NCBI RefSeq assembly: GCF_017356245.1
Contig: NZ_JAFMZZ010000001.1
Location: 2,149,490-2,213,489, forward strand
DNA: 64,000 nucleotides
Source of the DNA: Bordetella petrii
Lineage (GTDB): Bacteria; Pseudomonadota; Gammaproteobacteria; Burkholderiales; Burkholderiaceae_B
Reading direction: 5' to 3'
A model generated the notes under the pieces. That model had not been told where the DNA came from. It did not search any database and saw only the letters and a list, made by a program, of their open reading frames with translations. Each line of letters opens with the position of its first letter. Position 1 is the stretch's first letter. The position numbers and the translations under genes were made by a program. Positions 9,690 to 57,322 of this stretch are shown one piece after another.

Positions 9690-10069
9690 GGAATGTTTCG
9701 CATGTCGTGCAGCGACATGGGCATCATGTTGTGATCCAGATGGTACATGATCCAGATCGACCCGCTGAGCGCGATGACCACCAGCACCAGCGTGAACACA
9801 ATGGAAAGCAGGTTCCAGCCGCCTTCGGACTGGAAGTCGACGTGCAGGAAATAGATGACGTGGACCACGATCTGGACAATGGCGATAGCCAGGATCACCA
9901 GCCCGGTTACCCGTGAGCTGGAAAAGACATTGGCCATCACAATGAAGAAGGGCACGGCGGTCAGGATGGCCGCCAGGGCGAAGCCCAGCAGATAGCCATG
10001 CAGCGAGGCGTGGGCCAGGGGGTCTTCTTCGTGGTCGTGGCCGTTGTTGGCGGTTGCCGGGGTGCTCAT
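9686..10069 (-). CDS. cyoD: Cytochrome bo3 ubiquinol oxidase subunit IV
   Basis: A 127-residue small membrane subunit with three predicted transmembrane helices and the family's central [19 protein letters not shown] stretch. Subunit IV aids assembly and copper-site formation of the bo3 oxidase. ATG 10069 overlaps the cyoC stop by four bases (ATGA); an upstream start at 10150 would run far into cyoC and is rejected. A His/Asp-rich cytoplasmic N-terminus ([10 protein letters not shown]) precedes the first helix, as is common in this family. Confidence 0.93.
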
Positions 10070-15264: not shown

Positions 15265-16266
15265 ATGCCGCAAGACCAACCCGTTGCGCCGCCTGAAAGC
15301 GAAGTGGTGGCGTCGGTGGCGTATGTGCAGGGCCGGCGTTCGCACGACGTGCCCCTGGAAGACATCAAGTCGTACACCTGCCAGGATGAAAACCTGCTGT
15401 GGATCGGGCTGCGCAACCCCTGCACCGAAGTGCTGCGGCAAGTGGCCGACGACCTGGGCATCCGGCCCAAGACCCGCGACGAAATGCTCGAACCGCACCG
15501 CCGGCCCAAGATCATCGACTTCGGCCATTGTGTGCTGGTGGTGGCCATTACCGTTGAAATCGACCAGGGCCGGCCGGTCTTCGGCGAAACCCAGATCCTG
15601 ATCGGCCGCGGGTTCCTGCTGACGGTGCGGCGCGGCGCCACCACCAACTACAGTGCGCTGCGCGAGCGCCTGGAATCCGCGCCCGACCTGCTGCGGCGCG
15701 GCAGCGACTACGTGGCCTCGGAATTGCTCGACCTGCTGATCGACCATTACGTGGCGGCCGCGGGCGAACTGGAAAGCGTGGTCGAATCAGCCGAGCAAAA
15801 GCTGTTGATCCGCGGCGCCAAGGATTCCGATATCCGCAAGCTGTATCGGCGCCGCCGCGACCTGCTGCGCATCCATACCGTGATCGCGCCGCTGGCCGAG
15901 ATCTGCCGCCGGCTGGCCACCATGGACATGTCGGCGGTCGACGCCAATGCCCGCCCGTATTTTTCGGTGGTGGCCGACCGCGTGCTGCGCGTGGACGAAC
16001 TGATCAACGGGCTGCGCGAGGCCCTGGCGTTCGCGTTCGAGGCCAGCATGATGATCTCGCAGACTCAGCAGAACGACATCACCCGCCGGCTGGCCGCCTG
16101 GGCCGCCATCCTGGCCGTGCCCACCGCGGTTGCCGGCATTTACGGCATGAACTTCGAATTCATGCCCGAACTGAAAACCCATTGGGGCTACCCGCTTACG
16201 CTGACCGGCATCGCGACGGCGTGCGGCGTGCTGTACTGGCGGTTCCGCAAATCCGGCTGGCTGTGA
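15265..16266 (+). CDS. CorA-type magnesium/cobalt channel
   Basis: A 333-residue protein with the CorA plan: an acidic, mostly helical cytoplasmic N-terminus, a long helix around 200-270, then two C-terminal membrane helices separated by the signature loop YGMNFEFMPE, which forms the ion-selective pore mouth. The pentameric channel takes up Mg2+ and other divalent cations. ATG 15265 follows GCGGAGG at a good distance; a frame-shifted ATG at 15261 is not used. Being 59 bases downstream of the MFS gene, it may be co-transcribed with it. A half copy of the dispersed palindromic repeat follows the stop codon. Confidence 0.92.
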   Translation: MPQDQPVAPPESEVVASVAYVQGRRSHDVPLEDIKSYTCQDENLLWIGLRNPCTEVLRQVADDLGIRPKTRDEMLEPHRRPKIIDFGHCVLVVAITVEIDQGRPVFGETQILIGRGFLLTVRRGATTNYSALRERLESAPDLLRRGSDYVASELLDLLIDHYVAAAGELESVVESAEQKLLIRGAKDSDIRKLYRRRRDLLRIHTVIAPLAEICRRLATMDMSAVDANARPYFSVVADRVLRVDELINGLREALAFAFEASMMISQTQQNDITRRLAAWAAILAVPTAVAGIYGMNFEFMPELKTHWGYPLTLTGIATACGVLYWRFRKSGWL

Positions 16267-16282: not shown

Positions 16283-16313
16283 GGTGTCAGGCACCTTGCG
16301 GAGCCTGACGCCT
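16283..16313. repeat. Half copy of the dispersed palindromic intergenic element
   Basis: Arms GGTGTCAGGC (16283-16292) and GCCTGACGCC (16303-16312) flank a short loop; one base differs in the right arm. It sits 17 bases after the corA stop codon and before the nuclease gene. It matches the right-hand arm of the full elements at 46121, 47527 and 53596. No T-run follows the stem. Confidence 0.75.
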
Positions 16314-44975: not shown

Positions 44976-46085
44976 CTAGCGTTTCCTGGCCAGTTCTGCG
45001 CAAAAATCAGCCAAAGCGTCCCCTAAATCGGGGCGTGCCGCCTGGCTGGCGTCCCAGGCGCGGGCCGCGGCCTGCCAGTCGGACCACGGCTGGGCGGCCA
45101 GGGCGGCCGGCAGGGCCGCGGCCACGGCCTGGGCGGCGCCGTCCGGGGCGTTCCAGGCGCGGATCAGCGCCTGGGCCTGGGGCGGGCAGGGGTAGCGGCC
45201 CAGCCAGGCCTCGAGCTTGTCCAGGTGCGCGTCGTCGGCCTGGGGGTAAATCTGCCAGACCAGCGGGCGGGCCGCCCATGCCGCCCGCACGAAAGAATCT
45301 TCGCCGCGCACGAAGTTCAGGTCGGCGCACCACAACAGGCGGTCGAAATCGGGCTGCGGCATGAAGGGCACCCGGGCGATCCGCAAGGCGCCGCCGCCGG
45401 CATCTTCCAGGCCGGGCGCGGTGCCTTCGGGCGCCAGCAGCAGGGTGGGCCGGGTGTCGCGGGCCAGGGCCCGCGCCAGCGCGGCCAGCGGCGCGTGCGG
45501 ATAGCAGAACAGATTGGCCAGGCGGGCGCCGGCCCGCCAGTGCGCCAGGGCGGCATCGTCCAGGCCCAGGCCGCGCAGGAAGGCTTCCTGGCGCGGGCGT
45601 TCGGCCTGGAAGGCGTCGCGCTCGGCGCTCAGGCCCGGTTCACGCAGCAGGCCGCCGGTGGCGGCCGTGAAGCCGGGAAAGAAAAAGTGCTTGACCAGCC
45701 CGTCGGCGCGCCGCGACGGCAGGCCGTGGCAGCTTTCCACCCAGGGCTCGGCGCTGAGGTATTCAAGATTGATCCATACCGGCGGCCGGGCGCGCATGGC
45801 CTGCACGAAGGCGGCCGGCGGGTCGCAGGCAAAGGCCTCGATGGCCACGTCGCCCGGTTCCAGCGGCGGCGGCGATGAGGTCCAGTGCACGATGTCGATG
45901 CCGGTATGCCGCTGCAGCCCGGCATCGGCCGCGATGCCGGGCTGGATGCGGGCGAAGGCGCGCAGATCGTCGACCCACAGGCGCACCTGCCAGCCGCGCC
46001 CCTGGGCCAGGCGCCGCGCCAGGCGCCAGCACACGCCGATATCGCCGTAATTGTCGATGACGCGGCAGAAAATATCGGCCCGCAT
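44976..46085 (-). CDS. earP: EF-P arginine rhamnosyltransferase EarP
   Basis: A 369-residue glycosyltransferase of the GT-B fold (the former DUF2331). The N-terminus [25 protein letters not shown] is diagnostic and holds the catalytic Asp of the family (DNYGD). The C-terminal nucleotide-sugar site contains [19 protein letters not shown] and [19 protein letters not shown]. It transfers rhamnose from dTDP-L-rhamnose to Arg32 of EF-P. ATG 46085 follows GGGGAGG; a longer form would read into the dispersed repeat. The 151-base gap to efp leaves room for a separate efp promoter. Confidence 0.95.
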
Positions 46086-46120
46086 TACGCCTCCCCAGCA
46101 TGAAACGGGAACAAGGCATG

Positions 46121-46213
46121 CCAGGTGTCTGGCTCCGCAGGCGCCAGACACCGAAGTGTGCCGCGATTGTCTCGACAGCACGGTGTCAGGCACCTGCGGA
46201 GCCTGACACCTGG
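46121..46213. repeat. Full copy A of the 92-93 bp dispersed palindromic element
   Basis: The ends CCAGGTGTC and GACACCTGG mirror each other, and each arm of about 30 bases is itself a hairpin (GGTGTCTGGC / GCCAGACACC on the left, GGTGTCAGGC / GCCTGACACC on the right). The core between arms contains GTGC...GCAC around the shared TGTCTC. It lies between earP and the DUF2863 gene. Confidence 0.85.
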
Positions 46214-46247
46214 CAAAACCCGGGCGTTGCGGCGCAGAGGTTTCACT

Positions 46248-47450
46248 TCAGTGGAACTGGGCCGGCGCGGTGTCGGCGTCTTCGGGCAGCTCGGCGTGCA
46301 CCAGCTCGCCCAGCGGGTTCGGAAACTGCGGCGCTCCGCAATCTTCGCAGTACTCGGGCGGCAGCACGCCGGGGATGCGGCGCACGTCGTGCACGCCGTA
46401 TTCCTTGAGCAGCGCGGCGATCTCGTCGACCGTGTCGGGCAAGTCTTCGTCGGCCGGCTGGTCTTCTTCGCGGCCGTACAGCGGCCATACGCAGCCGTAG
46501 TAGACGTCGTTGCTGTTGCGGGCGGTAAAGCCGATGCGGTATTCGTCGATGCGCACGTCGCCGCAGCCGGCCACCACCGCGCGCAGTTCGGAGGGTTCGA
46601 GGTTGACGGCGCCTTCCAGCCAGTTGACGGCGGCGCGCAGCGACAGCGGCCGCACGCGGCGGTCGGCTTCGCGGTTGCTGACGTAATAGGCGTCGGGCAG
46701 CAGGCATTCGATGCCGCAGCCGGGCAGCAGCGCCGCCAGGGTGGGCTGGGCCTGTTCCACCCAGTTCGCCAGGCAGCTGTCGCGGCTGTGGGCGGCGTCG
46801 CCGGGCTGTTCTTGCCAGCGGAATACCGGCGCGCCCGCGGGCACGGCCACGGCCGCCACCACGTAGCGGGTGTCGGCCAGCATGTTGGCGGTTTCGGCGT
46901 CGTCGTTCAGGGCCGGCTTGGCGGTCTCGGCGCCCAGCGCCTGGCTGCCCAGACGCTGCAGCCACTGCCAGGTTTCGGAGAACGTGCGCGGCATCTGGTC
47001 GATGCTGACCAGCCAGGGCATCAGGGCCGCGCGCGCGCCGTCGGCCAGCACGTGGCCGTGCAGTTGCGCCAGCAGGGCCTGCTGCGCCGGCGCCGCGATG
47101 GGGCCGGTGGGAATCGTGTAGCGGGTCCAGGCCACCACGGGCGCCACCACCAGCAGCACGTCGTAGCGCTGTCCGTTCTTGTCGACGTGCATGGATTCGG
47201 ACAGGGTTTCGGCCTGTTCGATCAGCACTTCGTAGGCGCCCGGATCGCGTTGGGCGAGGTGGTCCAGGGCCGATTCGAGCGGGGCGTCCTGGCCGGCGCG
47301 CAACAGCTTGGGAATGGCCTCGGCGAGCAGGCTTTCCCAGTACAGGTCTTCGACCCGGCTGCCGGAGCGGTTCAGCGACTGCGCAAGCGCCGCCAGCCGC
47401 GATGCATCGCGGCCTAGGCGGGAAGAAGAGGGGCTACGGGCTCGGGCCAT
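46248..47450 (-). CDS. DUF2863 family protein
   Basis: A 400-residue soluble protein. The N-terminal LAALAQSLNRSGSRVEDLYWESLL and the middle segment YDVLLVVAPVVAWTRYTIPTG match the DUF2863 family of beta-proteobacteria, which has no known function. The C-terminus carries PEYCEDCGAPQFPNPLGELVHAE, a CxxC pair that may bind a metal. No signal peptide or membrane span is seen. ATG 47450 lacks a strong ribosome site. Both flanks carry a copy of the dispersed palindromic element, so this gene looks insulated from its neighbours. Confidence 0.78.
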   Translation of the reverse strand: MARARSPSSSRLGRDASRLAALAQSLNRSGSRVEDLYWESLLAEAIPKLLRAGQDAPLESALDHLAQRDPGAYEVLIEQAETLSESMHVDKNGQRYDVLLVVAPVVAWTRYTIPTGPIAAPAQQALLAQLHGHVLADGARAALMPWLVSIDQMPRTFSETWQWLQRLGSQALGAETAKPALNDDAETANMLADTRYVVAAVAVPAGAPVFRWQEQPGDAAHSRDSCLANWVEQAQPTLAALLPGCGIECLLPDAYYVSNREADRRVRPLSLRAAVNWLEGAVNLEPSELRAVVAGCGDVRIDEYRIGFTARNSNDVYYGCVWPLYGREEDQPADEDLPDTVDEIAALLKEYGVHDVRRIPGVLPPEYCEDCGAPQFPNPLGELVHAELPEDADTAPAQFH

Positions 47451-47526
47451 GCTGGGTCAGGATCCATTTCAGAATGCGAACTGGATAGTGTAACCCTGCG
47501 GACCTGTGCAGGCTCGGGCCTTGGGT

Positions 47527-47618
47527 CAGGGGTCAGGCTCCGCAGGTGCCTGACCCCGAAGCGGGCAGCCAGTGTCTCAATCGAACGGTGTCAGGCACCT
47601 TGCGGAGCCTGACACCTG
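47527..47618. repeat. Full copy B of the 92-93 bp dispersed palindromic element
   Basis: The left arm reads GGGTCAGGC / GCCTGACCC, a pair of compensating changes compared with the other copies, and the right arm is GGTGTCAGGC / GCCTGACACC. The core keeps TGTCTC. It lies between the acnA stop codon and the DUF2863 start. The left arm's paired changes show that the stem is maintained. Confidence 0.83.
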
Positions 47619-47644
47619 ATGGCTGAAACACCTGGCTTCGGCCG

Positions 47645-50344
<2,700 letters not shown>

Positions 50345-50450
50345 GATGGGACTCCGTGGGTTTGGGACCGCGTAAAGCTGCCATTTTCTGGCGTTTTGGC
50401 GCGCTTGTCATTGTATGTGAGACAAGGTTACCCGGCCTTGAATGTCTTTG

Positions 50451-50471
50451 GTCTTATATCTTATATAAGAC
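50451..50471. promoter_or_regulatory. Perfect inverted repeat upstream of acnA
   Basis: GTCTTATAT (50451-50459) and ATATAAGAC (50463-50471) are exact complements around CTT. The site is AT-rich in a GC-rich genome and falls in the acnA promoter region. Its form suits a GntR-type dimer. The regulator is not identified; the LysR gene on the other side is transcribed the same way and is less likely to bind here. Confidence 0.55.
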
Positions 50472-50542
50472 TTGATTTTACTGCGGGAGTTCCCGTGCCG
50501 TTTCCAGGGGCATTGGGGGGGGCGGCCTGCCGGCGCGCCCGG

Positions 50543-51469
50543 TCAGGCCGGCGCGGGGCCGGCCGCCAGGCGCTCGCGCAGGAAGTCCGCGAATACCCGC
50601 AATTTGGGCGCCATCTGCGTCCGGTGCGGGTAGTACAGGTAGAAGCCGGGAAAATTCGCGGCCCAGGATGTCAGCACGGGCGCCAGCGCGCCGCTGGCCA
50701 GGTGCCGGGCGATCGGATCTTCGAGCACGTGGATCAGCCCCAGGCCGTCCAGCGCCGCCTGCACCATCAGCGCGAAATCATTGGTCACGATGCGGTGCGG
50801 CACGTCGACTTCGAGCAGCTGGCCGTCGGGCTGGCGGTATTCCCAGCGGTACAGGGTGCCGCGTGTTTCGAAGCGGGTGCCGATGCAGGTGTGCGCCGCC
50901 AGGTCGGCCGGCTGCCGCGGCGCGGCGCCGCACTGCCTGAAATAGGCCGGCGAACCGGCGGTCACCATGCGCTGGTTGCGGCTGATGCGCACTGCCACCA
51001 TGTCGCGCGCCAGGTTTTCGCCCAGCCGGATGCCGGCGTCGAAGCCACCGGCCACCAGGTCGGTCAGGCCGTCGTCCAGAATCAGTTCGAGCACGATGCC
51101 GGGGTAGCGCGCGGTGAATTCGGCCAGATGCGGCGTGACCAGCAGGGCGCAGGCCACCCGCGAGGTGTTGATGCGCAGCGTGCCGGCCGGACGGCCGCGG
51201 GTGTCGTCCATGTCTTCGAGCGCGTCGCCGATGGCGCCCAGGGCGGGCCGCACGCGCTGCAGAAAGCGCTGCCCTTCTTCGGTCAGGGCCACCCGGCGGG
51301 TGGTGCGGTTCAGCAGGCGCACGCCCAGCCGGGCTTCCAGGCCGCGCACCGTTTGCGACAGCGCCGAGGCCGATACGCCCAGGTCGGCCGCCGCGCGGGT
51401 GAAGCTGCCGTAGCGGGCCACGCGGGTGAAGGCGTGCACGGCGGGCAGCAATTGGGCAGGGTAGTCCAT
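50543..51469 (-). CDS. LysR-family transcriptional regulator
   Basis: A 308-residue regulator with an N-terminal winged helix (FTRVARYGSFTRAAADLGVSASALSQTVRGLE, about 10-45, then LGVRLLNRTTRRVALTEEG) and a C-terminal effector domain (about 90-295). The effector domain contains GIRLGENLARDM, typical of LysR proteins related to CrgA/AaeR. ATG 51469 (MDYPAQLL) gives the usual short lead before the HTH; ATG 51496 would add nine residues. It is divergent from the aldo/keto reductase gene with 128 bases between them, so it probably controls that gene and itself. Confidence 0.86.
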   Translation of the reverse strand: MDYPAQLLPAVHAFTRVARYGSFTRAAADLGVSASALSQTVRGLEARLGVRLLNRTTRRVALTEEGQRFLQRVRPALGAIGDALEDMDDTRGRPAGTLRINTSRVACALLVTPHLAEFTARYPGIVLELILDDGLTDLVAGGFDAGIRLGENLARDMVAVRISRNQRMVTAGSPAYFRQCGAAPRQPADLAAHTCIGTRFETRGTLYRWEYRQPDGQLLEVDVPHRIVTNDFALMVQAALDGLGLIHVLEDPIARHLASGALAPVLTSWAANFPGFYLYYPHRTQMAPKLRVFADFLRERLAAGPAPA

Positions 51470-51597
51470 GCGGCAGATTATGAAGCCAGGCTTCATTAAT
51501 TATCAACCGATAGGCCATTTTTCTTATCAGTGGTGTTGCCTAGAGTACCCACATGGCCGCCGCATCCCGCGCCGCCGCTTTCCAGGAAGGCACCACC

Positions 51598-52716
51598 ATG
51601 ACCATGAAGCAATATCTCACGCTGGGCCGTTCGGGCCTGCGCGTCAGCCCGCTGTCGCTGGGCACCATGACTTTCGGCAACGAATGGGGCTGGGGCGCCG
51701 ACCAGGACGCCGCGCGGGCGCTGTTCAACCTGTACCGCGAGGCGGGCGGCAACTTCATCGACACCGCCGACATGTACACCGAAGGCACCAGCGAGCGCTG
51801 GCTGGGGCAGTTCGTACAGGAAACGGGCAGCCGCGACGAACTGGTGATCGCCACCAAGTATTCATATAACGCGCAGCCGGGCAACCCCAACGCGGGCGGC
51901 AACCAGCGCAAGAATTTCCAGCGCGCGCTGGAAGGTTCGCTCAAGCGCCTGCGCACCGACTACATCGACCTTTACTACCTGCACACCTGGGACCGCCTGA
52001 CGCCGGTGGACGAAGTGATGCGCGCCATGGACGATGCTGTGCGGGCGGGCAAGATCCGCTACGTGGGCCTGTCGGACGTGCCGGCCTGGTATGCCTCGCG
52101 CGCGCAGGCGCTGGCGCAGTGGCGCGGCTTCGAGCCGGTGGCCGCGCTGCAGCTGGAATACTCGCTGGTCGAGCGCAATGCCGAGCGCGAGTTCGCCGAC
52201 CTGGCGGTCGAGCAGGGTATGGGCATCGTGCCCTGGAGCCCGCTGGCCATGGGGCTGCTGTCGGGCAAATACCGGCCCAGCCAGGACGGCCAGTTCGGGC
52301 AGGGGCGCCTGCAGGCGGTGTCGCAGAATCCGGGGCCCGGCTTCGACCGCTTCACCCCGCGCAATTTCGCCATTGTGGCGGAACTGGAAAGCGTGGCGCG
52401 CGATGTCGGCAAGCCCATGGCGCAGGTGGCGCTGAACTGGCTGGCCGGCAAGCAGGGCGTGTCCAGCATCATTGTGGGCGCCACCCGGCCGGCGCAATTG
52501 CGGGAATCGCTGGCGTCGCTGGAATTCACGCTGCCGCCCGATGCCGTGCGGCGGCTCGACGCCGCCAGCGCCATGCCGGCGCCATTTCCGTATTACATGT
52601 TCGCCGACGTGCAGCAGCAGCGCATCCACGGCGGTGTGCAGGTGGCGTCGCGGCCCGGCGGCTATGCGCCCGCCACGGTGATCGGCGCCGCCGCGCCGCA
52701 GCCGCAGCAAGCCTAG
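51598..52716 (+). CDS. Aldo/keto reductase
   Basis: A 372-residue NADP-dependent oxidoreductase of the AKR superfamily. The catalytic set is visible: Asp and Tyr in DTADMYTEG, Lys in VIATKYSY and His in YYLHTWD. NADP-binding GATRPAQL lies near the C-terminus. LGTMTFGNEWGWGAD places it among the AKR11/AKR12-like sugar or general aldehyde reductases. ATG 51598 follows CAGGAAGG; an earlier frame from 51553 is less supported. The C-terminal 40 residues are Ala/Gln-rich and probably disordered. Divergent from a LysR gene; stop overlaps the nat gene stop by four bases on the opposite strand. Confidence 0.86.
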   Translation: MTMKQYLTLGRSGLRVSPLSLGTMTFGNEWGWGADQDAARALFNLYREAGGNFIDTADMYTEGTSERWLGQFVQETGSRDELVIATKYSYNAQPGNPNAGGNQRKNFQRALEGSLKRLRTDYIDLYYLHTWDRLTPVDEVMRAMDDAVRAGKIRYVGLSDVPAWYASRAQALAQWRGFEPVAALQLEYSLVERNAEREFADLAVEQGMGIVPWSPLAMGLLSGKYRPSQDGQFGQGRLQAVSQNPGPGFDRFTPRNFAIVAELESVARDVGKPMAQVALNWLAGKQGVSSIIVGATRPAQLRESLASLEFTLPPDAVRRLDAASAMPAPFPYYMFADVQQQRIHGGVQVASRPGGYAPATVIGAAAPQPQQA

Positions 52717-53528
52717 GGCAGGGCGTCCAGCCGGCGGTTCAGCGCGGGCGTGTCAGGCAGCGCCAGGCCGAAGGCATCGTGCAGCACGGCGCGAATCTCG
52801 GCCGTGCCGACCAGCTGGCGCCGGGTGGCGGAGCCATCCAGCCCGTACTCGGTGTAGTCGCGGTTGATCAGGGCCAGGCGGCCCCGCGGCGTGGGCCGGG
52901 CCGCGACCAGCCGCGTCACGAAATGCGAATCGGGGTGCGTGGACAAGTAGTAGTTGCTGACTTCATAGTCCACCCGGTAGGCGGGCTGCAGGTCGAAGCG
53001 GTACAGCGAACGCCACTCGCCCTGCATGCTGCTTTGCAGGCGCCAGGTGTCGGCGTCCCGCAGCAGCCGGAAGAGGCCGTGGGGCGTGTTCTGCGCCACG
53101 CCGGCCTGCAGGCGCAGCACGCCGGTGGGCGTGCTGCCGCCGAAGCCCACGTCGACGATGCAGGGCTCATCGTCCAGCCGCACCGCCAGCAGCATGTGCG
53201 AGCGCGGCGTGATGGCGTCGTCGGGCCGGTTCCACAGCACGCGCGCCGACAGGTCGTCGACCGGCAAGCCCAGGCTGCGCAGCACGGCGCCGAACAGCAG
53301 GTTGTGTTCGTAGCAATAGCCGCCGCGCTGGCCGCGCACCAGCTTGCGCTGCACGTCGGCCAGTTCCAGGCTGACGGGCAGCCCCGCGAACGGGTTCAGG
53401 TTCTCGAACGGAATGGCCTGTGTGTGGTGCAGCACCAGGGCCTGCAGCGCGTCGCGCGCGGGGGCGGCGGGCGCGCCGGGCAGGCCGATGCGGGCGAAGT
53501 AGGCGGGCAGGTCGAGGAAGTCGGACAT
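52713..53528 (-). CDS. Arylamine N-acetyltransferase
   Basis: A 271-residue NAT. The cysteine-protease-like triad is complete: Cys72 in RGGYCYEHN, His111 in PRSHMLL and Asp126 in VDVGFGG. IPFENLNPF near the N-terminus is also diagnostic. The enzyme transfers acetyl from acetyl-CoA to arylamines or hydrazines in the cytoplasm. ATG 53528 (MSDFLDLP) is chosen; an ATG four codons upstream is less likely. It converges with the aldo/keto reductase gene with overlapping stop codons, and a full palindromic repeat lies just upstream. Confidence 0.93.
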   Translation of the reverse strand: MSDFLDLPAYFARIGLPGAPAAPARDALQALVLHHTQAIPFENLNPFAGLPVSLELADVQRKLVRGQRGGYCYEHNLLFGAVLRSLGLPVDDLSARVLWNRPDDAITPRSHMLLAVRLDDEPCIVDVGFGGSTPTGVLRLQAGVAQNTPHGLFRLLRDADTWRLQSSMQGEWRSLYRFDLQPAYRVDYEVSNYYLSTHPDSHFVTRLVAARPTPRGRLALINRDYTEYGLDGSATRRQLVGTAEIRAVLHDAFGLALPDTPALNRRLDALP

Positions 53529-53595
53529 GTGCGGGGGCAAGGTGGCCGAAGTGGCGTTCAGTGTATTCGCGCTGCCGGGGCGATTTCGAACTATT

Positions 53596-53688
53596 CCAGG
53601 TGTCAGGCTCCGCAGGTGCCTGACACCGCGGTGTGCAACGACTGTCTCAACGTTGCGGTGTCAGGCGCCTGCGGAGCCTGACACCTGG
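53596..53688. repeat. Full copy C of the 92-93 bp dispersed palindromic element
   Basis: Ends CCAGGTGTC and GACACCTGG; arms GGTGTCAGGC / GCCTGACACC and GGTGTCAGGC / GCCTGACACC; core with GCAACG and CGTTGC pairing around ACTGTCTCAA. It lies between the nat gene and the fused ABC exporter gene. It is the most symmetric of the three full copies. Confidence 0.87.
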
Positions 53689-53737
53689 CGGGGGGCTTCC
53701 GGCAGAACTGCATCCAGCCGGACTGACGCGGCGGCCT

Positions 53738-56700
53738 TCAGGCGGCCTGCCGCGCCGCCATCATCTGCCGGTTCACCAGGTGCGCATAGGCGCCGCCGCG
53801 GCGCAGCAGGTCGTCGTGCGTGCCTGATTCCACGATGCGGCCGCCGTCTACCACGGCGATCGTGTCGGCCTGGCGGATGGTGGACAGCCGGTGCGCGATG
53901 ATCAGCGTGGTGCGGTGGCGCATCAGCTCGGCCAGCGCCTGGTGCACCTGGGCCTCGCTGATGGCGTCCAGGTGCGACGTGGCCTCGTCCAGGATCAGGA
54001 TCGGCGCGTCGCGCAGGAAGGCGCGGGCGATGGCGATGCGCTGCCGCTGGCCGCCCGACAGCGCCACGCCGCGCTCACCCACGCGGGTGCGCAGGCCGTC
54101 CGGCAGGCCGGCCACCAGCTCGGCCAGCGCGGCGCGTTCCACCGCCTGCCGCACGGCATCGGCGCTGGCGTCGGGGCGGGCCAGCCGGATGTTGTCTTCC
54201 AGGGTGCCGTTGAGCAGCCAGGTATCCTGCGCCACCAGGGCAATGCGGCGATACAGCGCGTCGAGCGTCAGCTCGGGCAGGCCGATGCCGCCGATGCGCA
54301 CGGCGCCCTGCTGCGGATCCCAGAAGCGCAGCAGCAGGCTGGCCAGCGTGCTCTTGCCCGCGCCCGACGGGCCGACCAGCGCCAGGGTGGCGCCGGCCGG
54401 CAGGTCCAGTGCGACCTGGTTCAGGGCGGGATGCCGGCGGCCCGGATAAGTGAAGGTCACCTGGTCGAAAGCCAGCGGCAGGCCGGCGCTGTCCAGCGGC
54501 GGCGCCAGCGGGCCATCGGCGATCGGCACCGGCTCGTCGTGGATGGCGCGCAGGCGCCGCGTCGAGGCCAGCGTGTCGGCCAGCTGGCGGCTGACCTGGG
54601 CGATTTCCGACACCGGCAAAAAGGCAGCCACCGACAGCAACACCAGCAGCGGCAGCAGGCCGGCCGCCAGCTGGCCCTGTGCCACCCACCAGGCGCCCAC
54701 CGCCGCCACCGCCAGCCCGCCCAGGCCGGTGGCGATTTCAAGCAGGGCGCCCTGGCGCGACAGGTCGGCCAGCAAGGCCAGCCGCACACGCTGGTAGTCG
54801 TGGGCAATCGCCAGGAAGGCGGCGCGCCGCCGGCCGGCCGCCGAGAACGCCACCAGGTCGGACAGCCCCTGGATGGTTTCGGAAAGGTGGGCGCCGAGCA
54901 GGCCCAGCGACTGGCGCGCCAGGCTGCCCTGCGCGTCCACGCGCGCGCGGCTCAGCCAGGGCGAGGCGCCGGCCCACAGCAGGAACGGCAGCAGCGCCAG
55001 CACCAGCGGCCACGCCGTGACGCCCAGGATGGCCAGCACCACGGCCGGCACCAGCACTGCGACAAATGCCGGTGCCACCGTGTGGGCGAAGAAGTACTCG
55101 ATGGTTTCCACGTCCTGCGTGGCCAGGCCGACCAGGTCGCCCGAGCGCCTGCGCAGCAAGTAGGCGGGCGCCAGCGCTTCCAGCTTCTGGTACAGCGCGA
55201 TGCGCATTTCGGCCAGCAGCTGATAGGCGATGGCATGCGCCAGCCAGGATTCGAGCCAGTGCAGCGCCGCGGCGGCCACTGCCGCTGCGAACAGGCCGGC
55301 CAGCAGGCCATCGAAGGGCTCGCCGTTCTTCAGGCGCGCAATGACCAGCGCGCCCAGCACCGAAACGCCGATGAACGCCGCCACGCGCCCGACGCCGCTG
55401 GCGACCGTGATGGCGAACTGCCGCTTCCAGGGGCGGATGATCTGCATCAGCGTCTGCATCACCTGCCGCGTGCCGATGTGGCGCGCGTCGGCTTCCAGCG
55501 GCGCGGGGGCGGGGCGGCCGTCGCCGCTGCCGGCTTCGGCCTGCAAGGCATCGGCCTGCAAGGCATCGGCCGCGGCCGGCAGCACTGCTGCCTGCGGCGC
55601 GCCCTGCTGGCCGCCCATCAGGCGCCGGTACAGGGTGTCGCCGGCCATCAGGGCGTCGTGCGTGCCCGATTCCACGATGCGGCCGCCGTCCAGCACCAGG
55701 ATGCGGTCGGCATTGACGACACTGGACAGGCGATGCGCCAGCACCAGGGTGGTGCGGCCGCGGCTGAGCCGGTCGAGCGCCTGCTGGATCCCGGCTTCGT
55801 TTTCGGCGTCCACCGACGACAGCGCCTCATCCAGGATCAGGATCGGCGTGTCGCGCAGCAGCGCCCGCGCAATCGCCAGGCGCTGCCGCTGGCCGCCCGA
55901 TAATTGCAGCCCGCGCTCGCCCAGCACGGTCTGGTAGCCCTGCGGCAGCGCCATGATGAACGCATGCGCGTTGGCCGCCGCCGCGGCCGCCTGCAATTGG
56001 TCCGGCGTGGCGTCGGGCCGCGCCAGCAGCAGGTTTTCTTCCACCGTGCCGTGAAACAGCGTGCTGTCCTGGGCCACCAGCGAAATGCGCGCGCGCACGG
56101 CTTCGGGGTCGAGCGCGCGCAGGTCGTGGCCGCCGATTTCGATATTGCCGGCCTGCGGGTCATGCAGGCGCAGCAGCAGGCGCACCAGGGTGGATTTGCC
56201 CGAGCCGCTGGGCCCCACGATGCCGACGCGCTCGCCGGGCTGTATGTCGAAGCTCATGCCCTGGTGCGTGATGCGGCGTCCGCCGGGATACGAGAATTCC
56301 ACATTCTTGAAGGCGATGGCCAGGCCGCCCGCGGCGGCCGGCGCGGTGCCGCCCGCGCCTCGCGGCGCCGGGCTGGCGGCGTCGAGCAGCGCGCGCACGC
56401 TGGCCGCGGCCGACTGGCCCATCAAGCCCTGGTGCAGCACCGAGCGCATGTCGCGCAGGGGGCGGAAGATTTCGGTGCCGGCCATCAGCACGACCAGCAG
56501 CGCGGCCAGCGTCATCTCGCCCTGCGACACGCGCCAGGCGCCCAGCGCCAGCGCGGCGGCGGCCCCCACGGTAATGCCGATGTCGGTGGCGAAGCGCGCC
56601 GAGACTTCGCGGCCCAGCACCTTGAAGGTATTGTCCGACAGGGCGCGCGCGCGGTCGGCCAGCCGTTCGCCCCAGGCGCGGCTTTGGCCGAACGCCTTCA

Positions 56701-57322
56701 GCGTGGGCAGGCCCTGCATTGCATCGAGGAATTCTTCGCCGAAGGCCTTGAAGGCCTGGGCCCGGCGCCGCGAGGCATCGCGATGGCTGCCGTGCGCCGC
56801 CAGCGGCAGGATCAGCGTGACCAGCGCGGCGGCCATCAGCACCAGCGCCACCGGCCAGTCCCACCAGGCAATGAAGGCGAAGATCACGACCGGCGCGCAG
56901 GCCGCGATGAACAGCTGCGGCAGGTAGCGGCCGAAGAAGCTCTGCAGCTGCTCGACACCGTCGATCACGGCCAGCATCACGCCGCCGGTGCGCTGGCCGC
57001 CGAACCAGGCCGGGCCCAGCTCGACGATCTTGTCGTACAGCTGCGCGCGCAGGTTGTTCTGGATGAGCGCGGCATTGCGGTTGGCCAGCAGGTTCAGCGC
57101 ATGCTCGAACATGCCGCGCAGCAGGATCGCGCCGGCCGCGCCGGCCAGGGGCCACCACAGTGCGCCGCCCTCGGCGCCGGCGAACAGCCGCGCCAGGAAC
57201 TGCCCCAGCAGCACGAAGCGCGCGATGCCCGCCGCCAGCCCCAGCAGGCCCAGCAGGGCGCAGGCCAGCATGCGCAGGCGCACGCCGCGCGTCATCGCCC
57301 AGAGTGTCGAATCGAAATACAT
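53738..57322 (-). CDS. Fused two-half ABC exporter (TMD-NBD-TMD-NBD)
   Basis: A 1194-residue protein joining two exporter half-units. Half 1 (about 1-570) has six membrane spans, Walker A GPSGSGKST, signature LSGGQRQR and Walker B ILILDEALSSVD. Half 2 (about 630-1190) repeats this with GPSGAGKST, LSGGQRQR and ILILDEATSHLD. The first NBD has Ala for Thr after DEA, a mild difference. The TMDs resemble CydDC and multidrug/lipid exporters. The linker (575-625) is Ala/Pro-rich with a short repeat LQADALQA. Both halves look active, so it could act as a monomeric full transporter; substrate unknown. AAAGGGG precedes ATG 57322. Confidence 0.9.
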   Translation of the reverse strand: MYFDSTLWAMTRGVRLRMLACALLGLLGLAAGIARFVLLGQFLARLFAGAEGGALWWPLAGAAGAILLRGMFEHALNLLANRNAALIQNNLRAQLYDKIVELGPAWFGGQRTGGVMLAVIDGVEQLQSFFGRYLPQLFIAACAPVVIFAFIAWWDWPVALVLMAAALVTLILPLAAHGSHRDASRRRAQAFKAFGEEFLDAMQGLPTLKAFGQSRAWGERLADRARALSDNTFKVLGREVSARFATDIGITVGAAAALALGAWRVSQGEMTLAALLVVLMAGTEIFRPLRDMRSVLHQGLMGQSAAASVRALLDAASPAPRGAGGTAPAAAGGLAIAFKNVEFSYPGGRRITHQGMSFDIQPGERVGIVGPSGSGKSTLVRLLLRLHDPQAGNIEIGGHDLRALDPEAVRARISLVAQDSTLFHGTVEENLLLARPDATPDQLQAAAAAANAHAFIMALPQGYQTVLGERGLQLSGGQRQRLAIARALLRDTPILILDEALSSVDAENEAGIQQALDRLSRGRTTLVLAHRLSSVVNADRILVLDGGRIVESGTHDALMAGDTLYRRLMGGQQGAPQAAVLPAAADALQADALQAEAGSGDGRPAPAPLEADARHIGTRQVMQTLMQIIRPWKRQFAITVASGVGRVAAFIGVSVLGALVIARLKNGEPFDGLLAGLFAAAVAAAALHWLESWLAHAIAYQLLAEMRIALYQKLEALAPAYLLRRRSGDLVGLATQDVETIEYFFAHTVAPAFVAVLVPAVVLAILGVTAWPLVLALLPFLLWAGASPWLSRARVDAQGSLARQSLGLLGAHLSETIQGLSDLVAFSAAGRRRAAFLAIAHDYQRVRLALLADLSRQGALLEIATGLGGLAVAAVGAWWVAQGQLAAGLLPLLVLLSVAAFLPVSEIAQVSRQLADTLASTRRLRAIHDEPVPIADGPLAPPLDSAGLPLAFDQVTFTYPGRRHPALNQVALDLPAGATLALVGPSGAGKSTLASLLLRFWDPQQGAVRIGGIGLPELTLDALYRRIALVAQDTWLLNGTLEDNIRLARPDASADAVRQAVERAALAELVAGLPDGLRTRVGERGVALSGGQRQRIAIARAFLRDAPILILDEATSHLDAISEAQVHQALAELMRHRTTLIIAHRLSTIRQADTIAVVDGGRIVESGTHDDLLRRGGAYAHLVNRQMMAARQAA

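Follow-up and report, generated by a model that had tools for sequence, protein, structure and literature searches.

What is the palindromic element of 92–93 bp that recurs in a stretch of the Bordetella petrii-like genome, and how did it come to lie behind the stop codons of genes? We addressed this question in a window of 64,000 nucleotides (the whole stretch of DNA analysed; bases 2149490–2213489 of contig 1 of a genome of 4.95 Mb in 14 contigs). Our answer, to which we assign a probability of about 0.8, is that it is a REPIN-like non-autonomous element, an inverted doublet of repetitive extragenic palindromic (REP) hairpins, moved in trans by a REP-associated tyrosine transposase (RAYT). 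This answer is supported by the copy number, the doublets, the local covariation, the placement at 3′ ends, the linkage of RAYT genes with hairpins and the joint absence of both from two congeners; further support comes from one site found filled and empty, with its lineage dated. A REP/MITE-like element (MITE, miniature inverted-repeat transposable element) moved in trans had been suggested in the initial annotation, and after testing it is the best reading in view of the numerous copies, the unconserved sites and the RAYT linkage; the movement itself we infer.

The three full copies of 92–93 bp and the two half copies described earlier were found in their places, with two hairpins in each full copy and one in each half copy; none is assigned a strand. 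Copy A (46121–46213) has inverted hairpins at 46125–46151 and 46183–46209, and copy C (53596–53688) at 53600–53626 and 53658–53684, both with the outer feet CCAG/CTGG. The inverted hairpins of copy B (47527–47618) are at 47530–47556 and 47588–47615. One half copy (1264–1294) is the single hairpin GTGTCAGGC...GCCTGACAC (−23.8 kcal/mol, z −6.4), and the other (16284–16311) is the single hairpin GTGTCAGGC...GCCTGACGC with one G-T foot pair (−23.7 kcal/mol, z −5.1). The earlier observation that all five lie near gene 3′ ends was confirmed, the distance from stop codon to element being 12–49 bp. Copy A occupies a tandem gap and follows the stop codon of the gene 46248–47450 (−), copy B follows that of 47645–50344 (−) and copy C that of 53738–57322 (−); the half copies are 12 bp behind the stop of 1311–2780 (−) and 13 bp behind that of a gene ending at 16266 (+), respectively. 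For two of the five, the next gene starts just 35 and 37 bp away. The word GTGTCAGGCNCC, with up to one mismatch, was present 18 times in the window, compared with a mean of 2.4 and a largest value of 8 in 100 shuffles. A scan of the window against Rfam gave no family at its gathering score.

The genome as a whole contains many more copies than the window alone would suggest. With copy C as the query we obtained 80 matches, counting both strands (40 of 174 first-look candidates were scored). In the genome of the window, the exact hairpin GTGTCAGGC-N6..16-GCCTGACAC occurs 112 times and the relaxed stem GTGTCNGRC / GYCNGACAC forms 306 hairpins, and the backward-read controls gave 0 in both cases. 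A mere handful of copies genome-wide, which had been named beforehand as the outcome that would speak against a mobile element, was therefore not what we observed.

For the anatomy we used 45 two-hairpin copies, gathered from the window, a 400-kb stretch, 42 loci found by searching and two others, a set that leans towards copy C because 27 of its loci were fetched for their likeness to it. The unit is an inverted doublet of hairpins of the type GGTGTCNGRC/GYCNGACACC, with a 31-nt core (in 39 of the 45 doublets) and the outer feet CCAG. Over the 90 outer feet, C, A and G are conserved at 91%, 90% and 100%, and the first C at 63%; the complete CCAG is present at 26 left and 23 right feet (of 45 each), and the inner feet have CG at the end. 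The core word TGTCTC, invariant in the initial annotation, did not remain so at this scale, as it was found in just 17 of the 45 doublets, and GTCTC in 29. REPINs are recognised by their usual unit, two REP-like hairpins inverted to each other at a fixed spacing, and by a high copy number at extragenic positions. Both features were seen here: in 464 kb (the 400-kb stretch plus the window) 20 of the 29 elements are doublets, and, besides the 306 hairpins of the genome, 27 of these 29 sampled elements are intergenic.

Covariation favours two separate local hairpins rather than one long fold of the whole element. Non-Watson-Crick pairs amount to 13 and 16 of 405 in the two local hairpins; when the 3′ arms were shuffled among the copies 2000 times, we obtained means of 24 (minimum 14) and 52 (minimum 36). 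The long fold has 42 and 47 non-Watson-Crick pairs among 405, and the cells changed on both sides number 33 in the local hairpins versus 6 in the long fold, a result towards which the hairpin finder, allowing up to two unpaired positions in nine, is somewhat biased. The compensating changes reported for copy B were seen again (its left hairpin is GGGTCAGGC/GCCTGACCC), and copy A likewise has a double change, GTGTCTGGC/GCCAGACAC. The compensating pair at site B can be placed on a lineage, the sister locus L053 having GTGTC/GACAC and the window GGGTC/GACCC. That these changes reflect maintained pairing, and thus selection for structure, does not necessarily follow: quasi-palindrome correction is a mutational route that could also yield double changes.

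These data bear on another origin of the element, a classical MITE, in which the terminal inverted repeats of a deleted DNA transposon would be moved in trans by a DDE transposase. The element is indeed short with long inverted ends, and filled and empty sites exist. However, each arm is a hairpin of its own that covaries internally and not with the other end, lone single hairpins occur, the linked gene (described below) encodes a Y1 transposase, and no target duplication is evident at sites A and B, where the junctions are blurred. We regard a MITE as extremely improbable.

Placement was analysed in the 400-kb stretch and the window, with genes from a simple purpose-made codon-model caller; the density in the 400-kb stretch is not typical, because this stretch was picked after its copy richness was seen. 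Two of the 29 elements were called genic, one a real copy and the other a chance hit. The 27 intergenic elements are distributed over convergent (17) and tandem (10) gaps, and none is in a divergent gap, although divergent gaps make up 27.5% of the element-free intergenic bases (P 1.8e-4; by gap number P 0.007). The nearest gene end is within 49 bp for 24 of the 27, four of which overlap the called end. Insertion into terminator loops was considered as a rule and dropped, because the flanks of the genome's own elements are without excess complementarity (45 elements, mean flank duplex −21.2 versus −21.8 kcal/mol when shuffled, sd 0.5). Separately, at site B of L053 (∼9810–9940) a doublet stands between the GC-rich arms GGCCCCGCCCC / GGGGCGGGCC, and L054 and L056 have an unbroken GC-rich hairpin there; it looks as if this doublet had landed within a terminator-like hairpin, at its loop, which makes no general rule.

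Next to the window's genome, we compared 51 named loci from a scan with the protein encoded between copies A and B (window 46248–47450). At site A, no hairpin was present in any of the 47 loci with both flanks aligned within 3 kb; the gap from stop to start is ∼6–15 bp in L053, L054, L055, L057, L058 and L064, longer in L056 and 162 bp in the window. At site B, among the 40 loci with both flanks within 3 kb, two hairpins were found solely in L053 (Bordetella petrii BT 1 9.2), and L089 and L092 gave single weak hairpin matches. Site C is outside this comparison, its two flanks being together in no relative. Thus, for sites A and B, we did not see the pattern that had been proposed as evidence against spread, the same loci being conserved in all relatives.

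If the hairpins were host RNA elements, that is, terminators or 3′ mRNA stabilisers selected at gene ends, with the RAYT link secondary, their position near stop codons throughout the sample and their enrichment between convergent genes would be expected, as would their very stable folds and preserved local pairing. But avoidance of promoter regions alone would yield the same placement, and none of the four terminator-like sites in 46000–53800 is at an element, so the elements have no T-run behind them. The sites are also unconserved (A empty in all 47 loci, B in 39 of 40 apart from the single weak matches in two), two congeners have no hairpins at all, and the flanking of the RAYT gene in six of six genomes is left unexplained. 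We therefore consider this origin unlikely, with an RNA role of the hairpins being possible.

The distribution of the hairpins was determined in a survey of 268 genomes of the family, nine of which, including the window's own (G000), belong to the genus; G008, G004, G001, G005 and G006 correspond to B. petrii BT 1 9.2, Bordetella sp. BOR01, B. petrii MY10, genomosp. 7 and genomosp. 2, respectively. The nine genus genomes have 306 (own), 361, 888, 252, 470, 106, 88, 0 and 0 hairpins. By a PF01797 search we found one Y1 transposase each in G001, G003, G004, G005, G006 and G008, and none in G000, G002 and G007. The RAYT gene is hence present in six of the nine genomes, and in all six hairpins stand on both its sides: within 1 kb of it there are 4–8 hairpins of the exact degenerate pattern, versus 0.03–0.23 expected from the density of each genome, in a test devised after the first case was seen. 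G002 and G007 have neither hairpins nor RAYT. The RAYT locus is common to G003, G005 and G008 (in the last with one flank kept on the contig), and G001, G004 and G006 carry the gene at other loci.

The flanking stems are GTGTCAGGC and GTGTCTGAC in G003 and G008, GTGTCAGGC in G004, GTGTCCGGC in G001, mainly GTGTCTGAC in G005 and GTGTCAGAC in G006. Their agreement with the hairpin population of the respective genome is partial, GTGTCAGGC accounting for 67 of 88 hairpins in G004, 8 of 252 in G001, 12 of 470 in G005 and 15 of 106 in G006. The proteins have the features of the family: HVH and YIELNP, corresponding to the HUH and Y-x3-NP motifs, are present in five of five aligned, five of the six genus RAYTs exceed the REP_Tyr_transpos cut-off of 80 bits, and among PDB entries TnpAREP matches best (4er8, E 1.2e-5). 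As a separate observation, hairpins of G003 also form direct tandem arrays (C1:518316–518862, 574801–575219, 854316–855465 and 898427–899455, with spacings of ∼104, 130, 112 and 326–346 bp), a possible source of strain-to-strain length differences.

Among the genomes outside the genus, three of genus g4 (43 Achromobacter-like genomes) have 34, 52 and 25 hairpins and the other 40 of g4 have 0–4; the remaining 216 family genomes have 0–2, where the backward-read control reached up to 3. REP_Tyr_transpos matched in 76 of the 268 genomes, above the cut-off in 22. We fetched 20 further RAYT stretches and built a tree of 25 rows (23 RAYTs and 2 homologues without the HUH pair), from which two stretches without an intact ORF and G005, with an in-frame stop, were left out. 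The five usable genus RAYTs form one clade (support 100/98) with those of G062, G083 and G099, which are the three g4 genomes with hairpins (25–52). In this eight-row clade 63–82 residues follow the Y motif, versus 109–116 in eight related RAYTs; the proteins of G068, G141 and G031 are short too. The clade hence lacks the C-terminal extension after the catalytic core by which TIRYT (subclass 2.1) enzymes are recognised.

The sequence GGKGTCAGAC was tested in 14 of the 20 stretches outside the genus and was found on both sides of the RAYT gene in 12; none was near the RAYTs of G068 and G141, and at G031 the flanks are barely beyond chance (P 0.018) because this genome has >2,000 copies. In G143 and G098 it lies within plain inverted repeats and not in hairpins. 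Genome-wide, there are 60+66 copies in the window's own genome, 140–436 per strand in G143, G062, G083 and G099, 10–20 per strand in G066, G089, G091 and G098, and numbers near the control in G027, G242, G068 and G166; therefore, a RAYT of the wider group is not always accompanied by many repeats. G031 (genus g24) deserves mention on its own: with 1072+1075 copies (control 5+4) and its RAYT (L236) flanked by GGGTCAGACCC hairpins, it harbours a related repeat in very large numbers.

From these comparisons we tentatively propose, at somewhat less than even odds, that a TIRYT-kind RAYT lineage marked by GG[G/T]GTCAGAC lost its C-terminal extension in the B. petrii clade and some Achromobacter-like genomes, and that its flanking inverted repeats became hairpins and then hundreds of REPIN-like doublets with CCAG feet. 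If this is true, the group would be a living intermediate between a terminal-repeat transposon and a REP system, with the window's genome representing the stage after loss of the enzyme. The idea that loss of the extension caused the amplification was weakened, because G143, with its 164+140 copies of GGKGTCAGAC, keeps the extension (its Y motif is followed by 112 residues), and because the likewise short proteins of G031, G068 and G141 go with 1072+1075, 5+9 and 24+25 copies.

How the doublets would spread can be proposed from sequence. The RAYT, an HUH/Y1 single-strand transposase, would recognise the hairpin as folded single-stranded DNA, cut beside its foot, where CCAG may play a role, and carry the doublet to new places. 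Insertions would survive chiefly right behind stop codons, where the harm is least, and the survivors may become stable 3′ hairpins of mRNAs.

Several observations weigh against a REPIN-like element moved by a RAYT. The tags of described REPs, GTAG, GTGG and CGTC, were each found in 1 of 180 feet; lacking the GTAG foot, the element is outside the tagged REP families as defined, which lowers the case for a GTAG REP and not that for an element working like one. Folded as a whole, a copy reaches its lowest energy as a single long hairpin (−61 to −79 kcal/mol, z −7 to −14). At site A, ∼55–60 bp beyond the element also differ from the empty relatives, so that no clean junction or target duplication can be defined there. 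Among the enzymes, the RAYT of G006 scored 78.5 with REP_Tyr_transpos, just under the cut-off of 80, and the RAYT gene of G005 (L107, G005:C4:169043–169381) has an in-frame TGA despite the 470 hairpins of that genome. G068, G066, G089, G091 and G098 have related RAYTs, yet 0–2 hairpins. Finally, PF01797, profile and REP_Tyr_transpos searches of the 14 contigs of the window's own genome gave no catalytic RAYT. The RAYT gene that the initial annotation proposed to look for thus stands beside hairpins in six of the nine genus genomes but was not found, in catalytic form, in the genome that raised the question, and the same holds for the third mark of REPINs, a RAYT flanked by the same repeats.

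Since no catalytic RAYT was found in it, the hairpins of the window's genome are probably an orphaned population. At the position of the RAYT locus of G003, this genome has both flanks intact on one contig and, between them, 182 bp with two worn hairpins and no RAYT; we infer a loss of the RAYT rather than a RAYT in an assembly gap. The profile search detected only a diverged homologue without the HUH pair or Y-x3-NP, which is also present in G002, G005 and G007. This homologue of 237–246 aa (L118:1315–2055 (−), G000:C4:918948–919373; also L117, L119 and L120) is kept even where hairpins are absent, and in G000 a doublet lies directly behind it; this could be a relative that has been domesticated and is no longer catalytic.

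These results connect one family of Bordetella repeats with a specific transposase through position, through presence or absence and through a protein clade. Some genomes of the genus have both the enzyme and the repeats, some have the repeats alone and some lack both, so that the genus offers a test of spread, of the non-GTAG foot and of the fate of such repeats after enzyme loss.

No description of this repeat in print was found in the open-licence literature, and in the available part of the B. petrii genome paper (PMC2572626) the text has no palindrom-, hairpin or repetitive. Bordetella REP-like repeats are listed among the families without terminal motifs in the part available of Di Nocera 2013 (PMC3733652). 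The known repeats of the genus are the Bor repeats, described in the accessible text as 26–30 bp hairpins of B. bronchiseptica, B. parapertussis and B. pertussis (PMC1590033), with a 93-nt Bor-1 model in B. pertussis (PMC2267715). They resemble our element in being intergenic, REP-like hairpins of Bordetella that lie close to the ends of genes, and from the shared genus name, the intergenic position and the length of 93 nt one could suppose that it is Bor-1 under another view. We had first assumed this identity from the length and set it aside after looking at the B. pertussis-like genome G140, which has 0 hairpins by the degenerate stem and 1 chance-level match in 400 kb. Its abundant stem differs: GTGCCTGTCCC-N4-GGGACAGGCAC is present 26 times in 400 kb (up to three mismatches), matches the printed 26-bp size and gave no match in 464 kb of the window's genome. 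No RAYT match was found for G140, which is missing from the 76 genomes matched by REP_Tyr_transpos. Identity with Bor-1 is accordingly very improbable, and the abundant hairpin of G140, matched on size and not on consensus, is probably the published Bor repeat. These 26-bp hairpins (L152–L171) are sometimes clustered 15–77 bp apart, and G140 also has an insertion sequence-like sequence 27–28 times in 400 kb.

Among the systems with a transposase, the E. coli REP/BIME (bacterial interspersed mosaic element) system with TnpAREP (PMC8266576, in the part available; PDB 4er8) shares with ours the hairpins at gene ends and a homologous HUH/Y1 enzyme; the E. coli enzyme requires GTAG and a bulged stem, in contrast to the CCAG foot and regular stems of our element. 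To TIRYT/TIRtron, or TnpAY1 subclass 2.1 (PMC3733652, PMC6006769), the likeness is in the inverted repeats on both sides of related RAYTs in the family, which begin with GG[G/T]GTCAGAC, close to the GGGGWSAS printed in the available text. The accessible part of Quentin 2018 (PMC6006769) reports no REP-like sequences near subclass 2.1 genes; unlike TIRYT/TIRtron, the genus and the three g4 genomes have hairpin doublets and an enzyme without the C-terminal extension. The REPINs and RAYTs of Pseudomonas fluorescens SBW25, as far as described in the accessible text of PMC3116915, differ in that our element has no GTAG tag, a 31-nt core and a length of 93 bp, and that no catalytic RAYT was found in the window's genome. 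In both, however, hundreds of inverted doublets are dispersed between genes, the RAYT gene is flanked by the same repeats, and single and clustered REPs occur as well.

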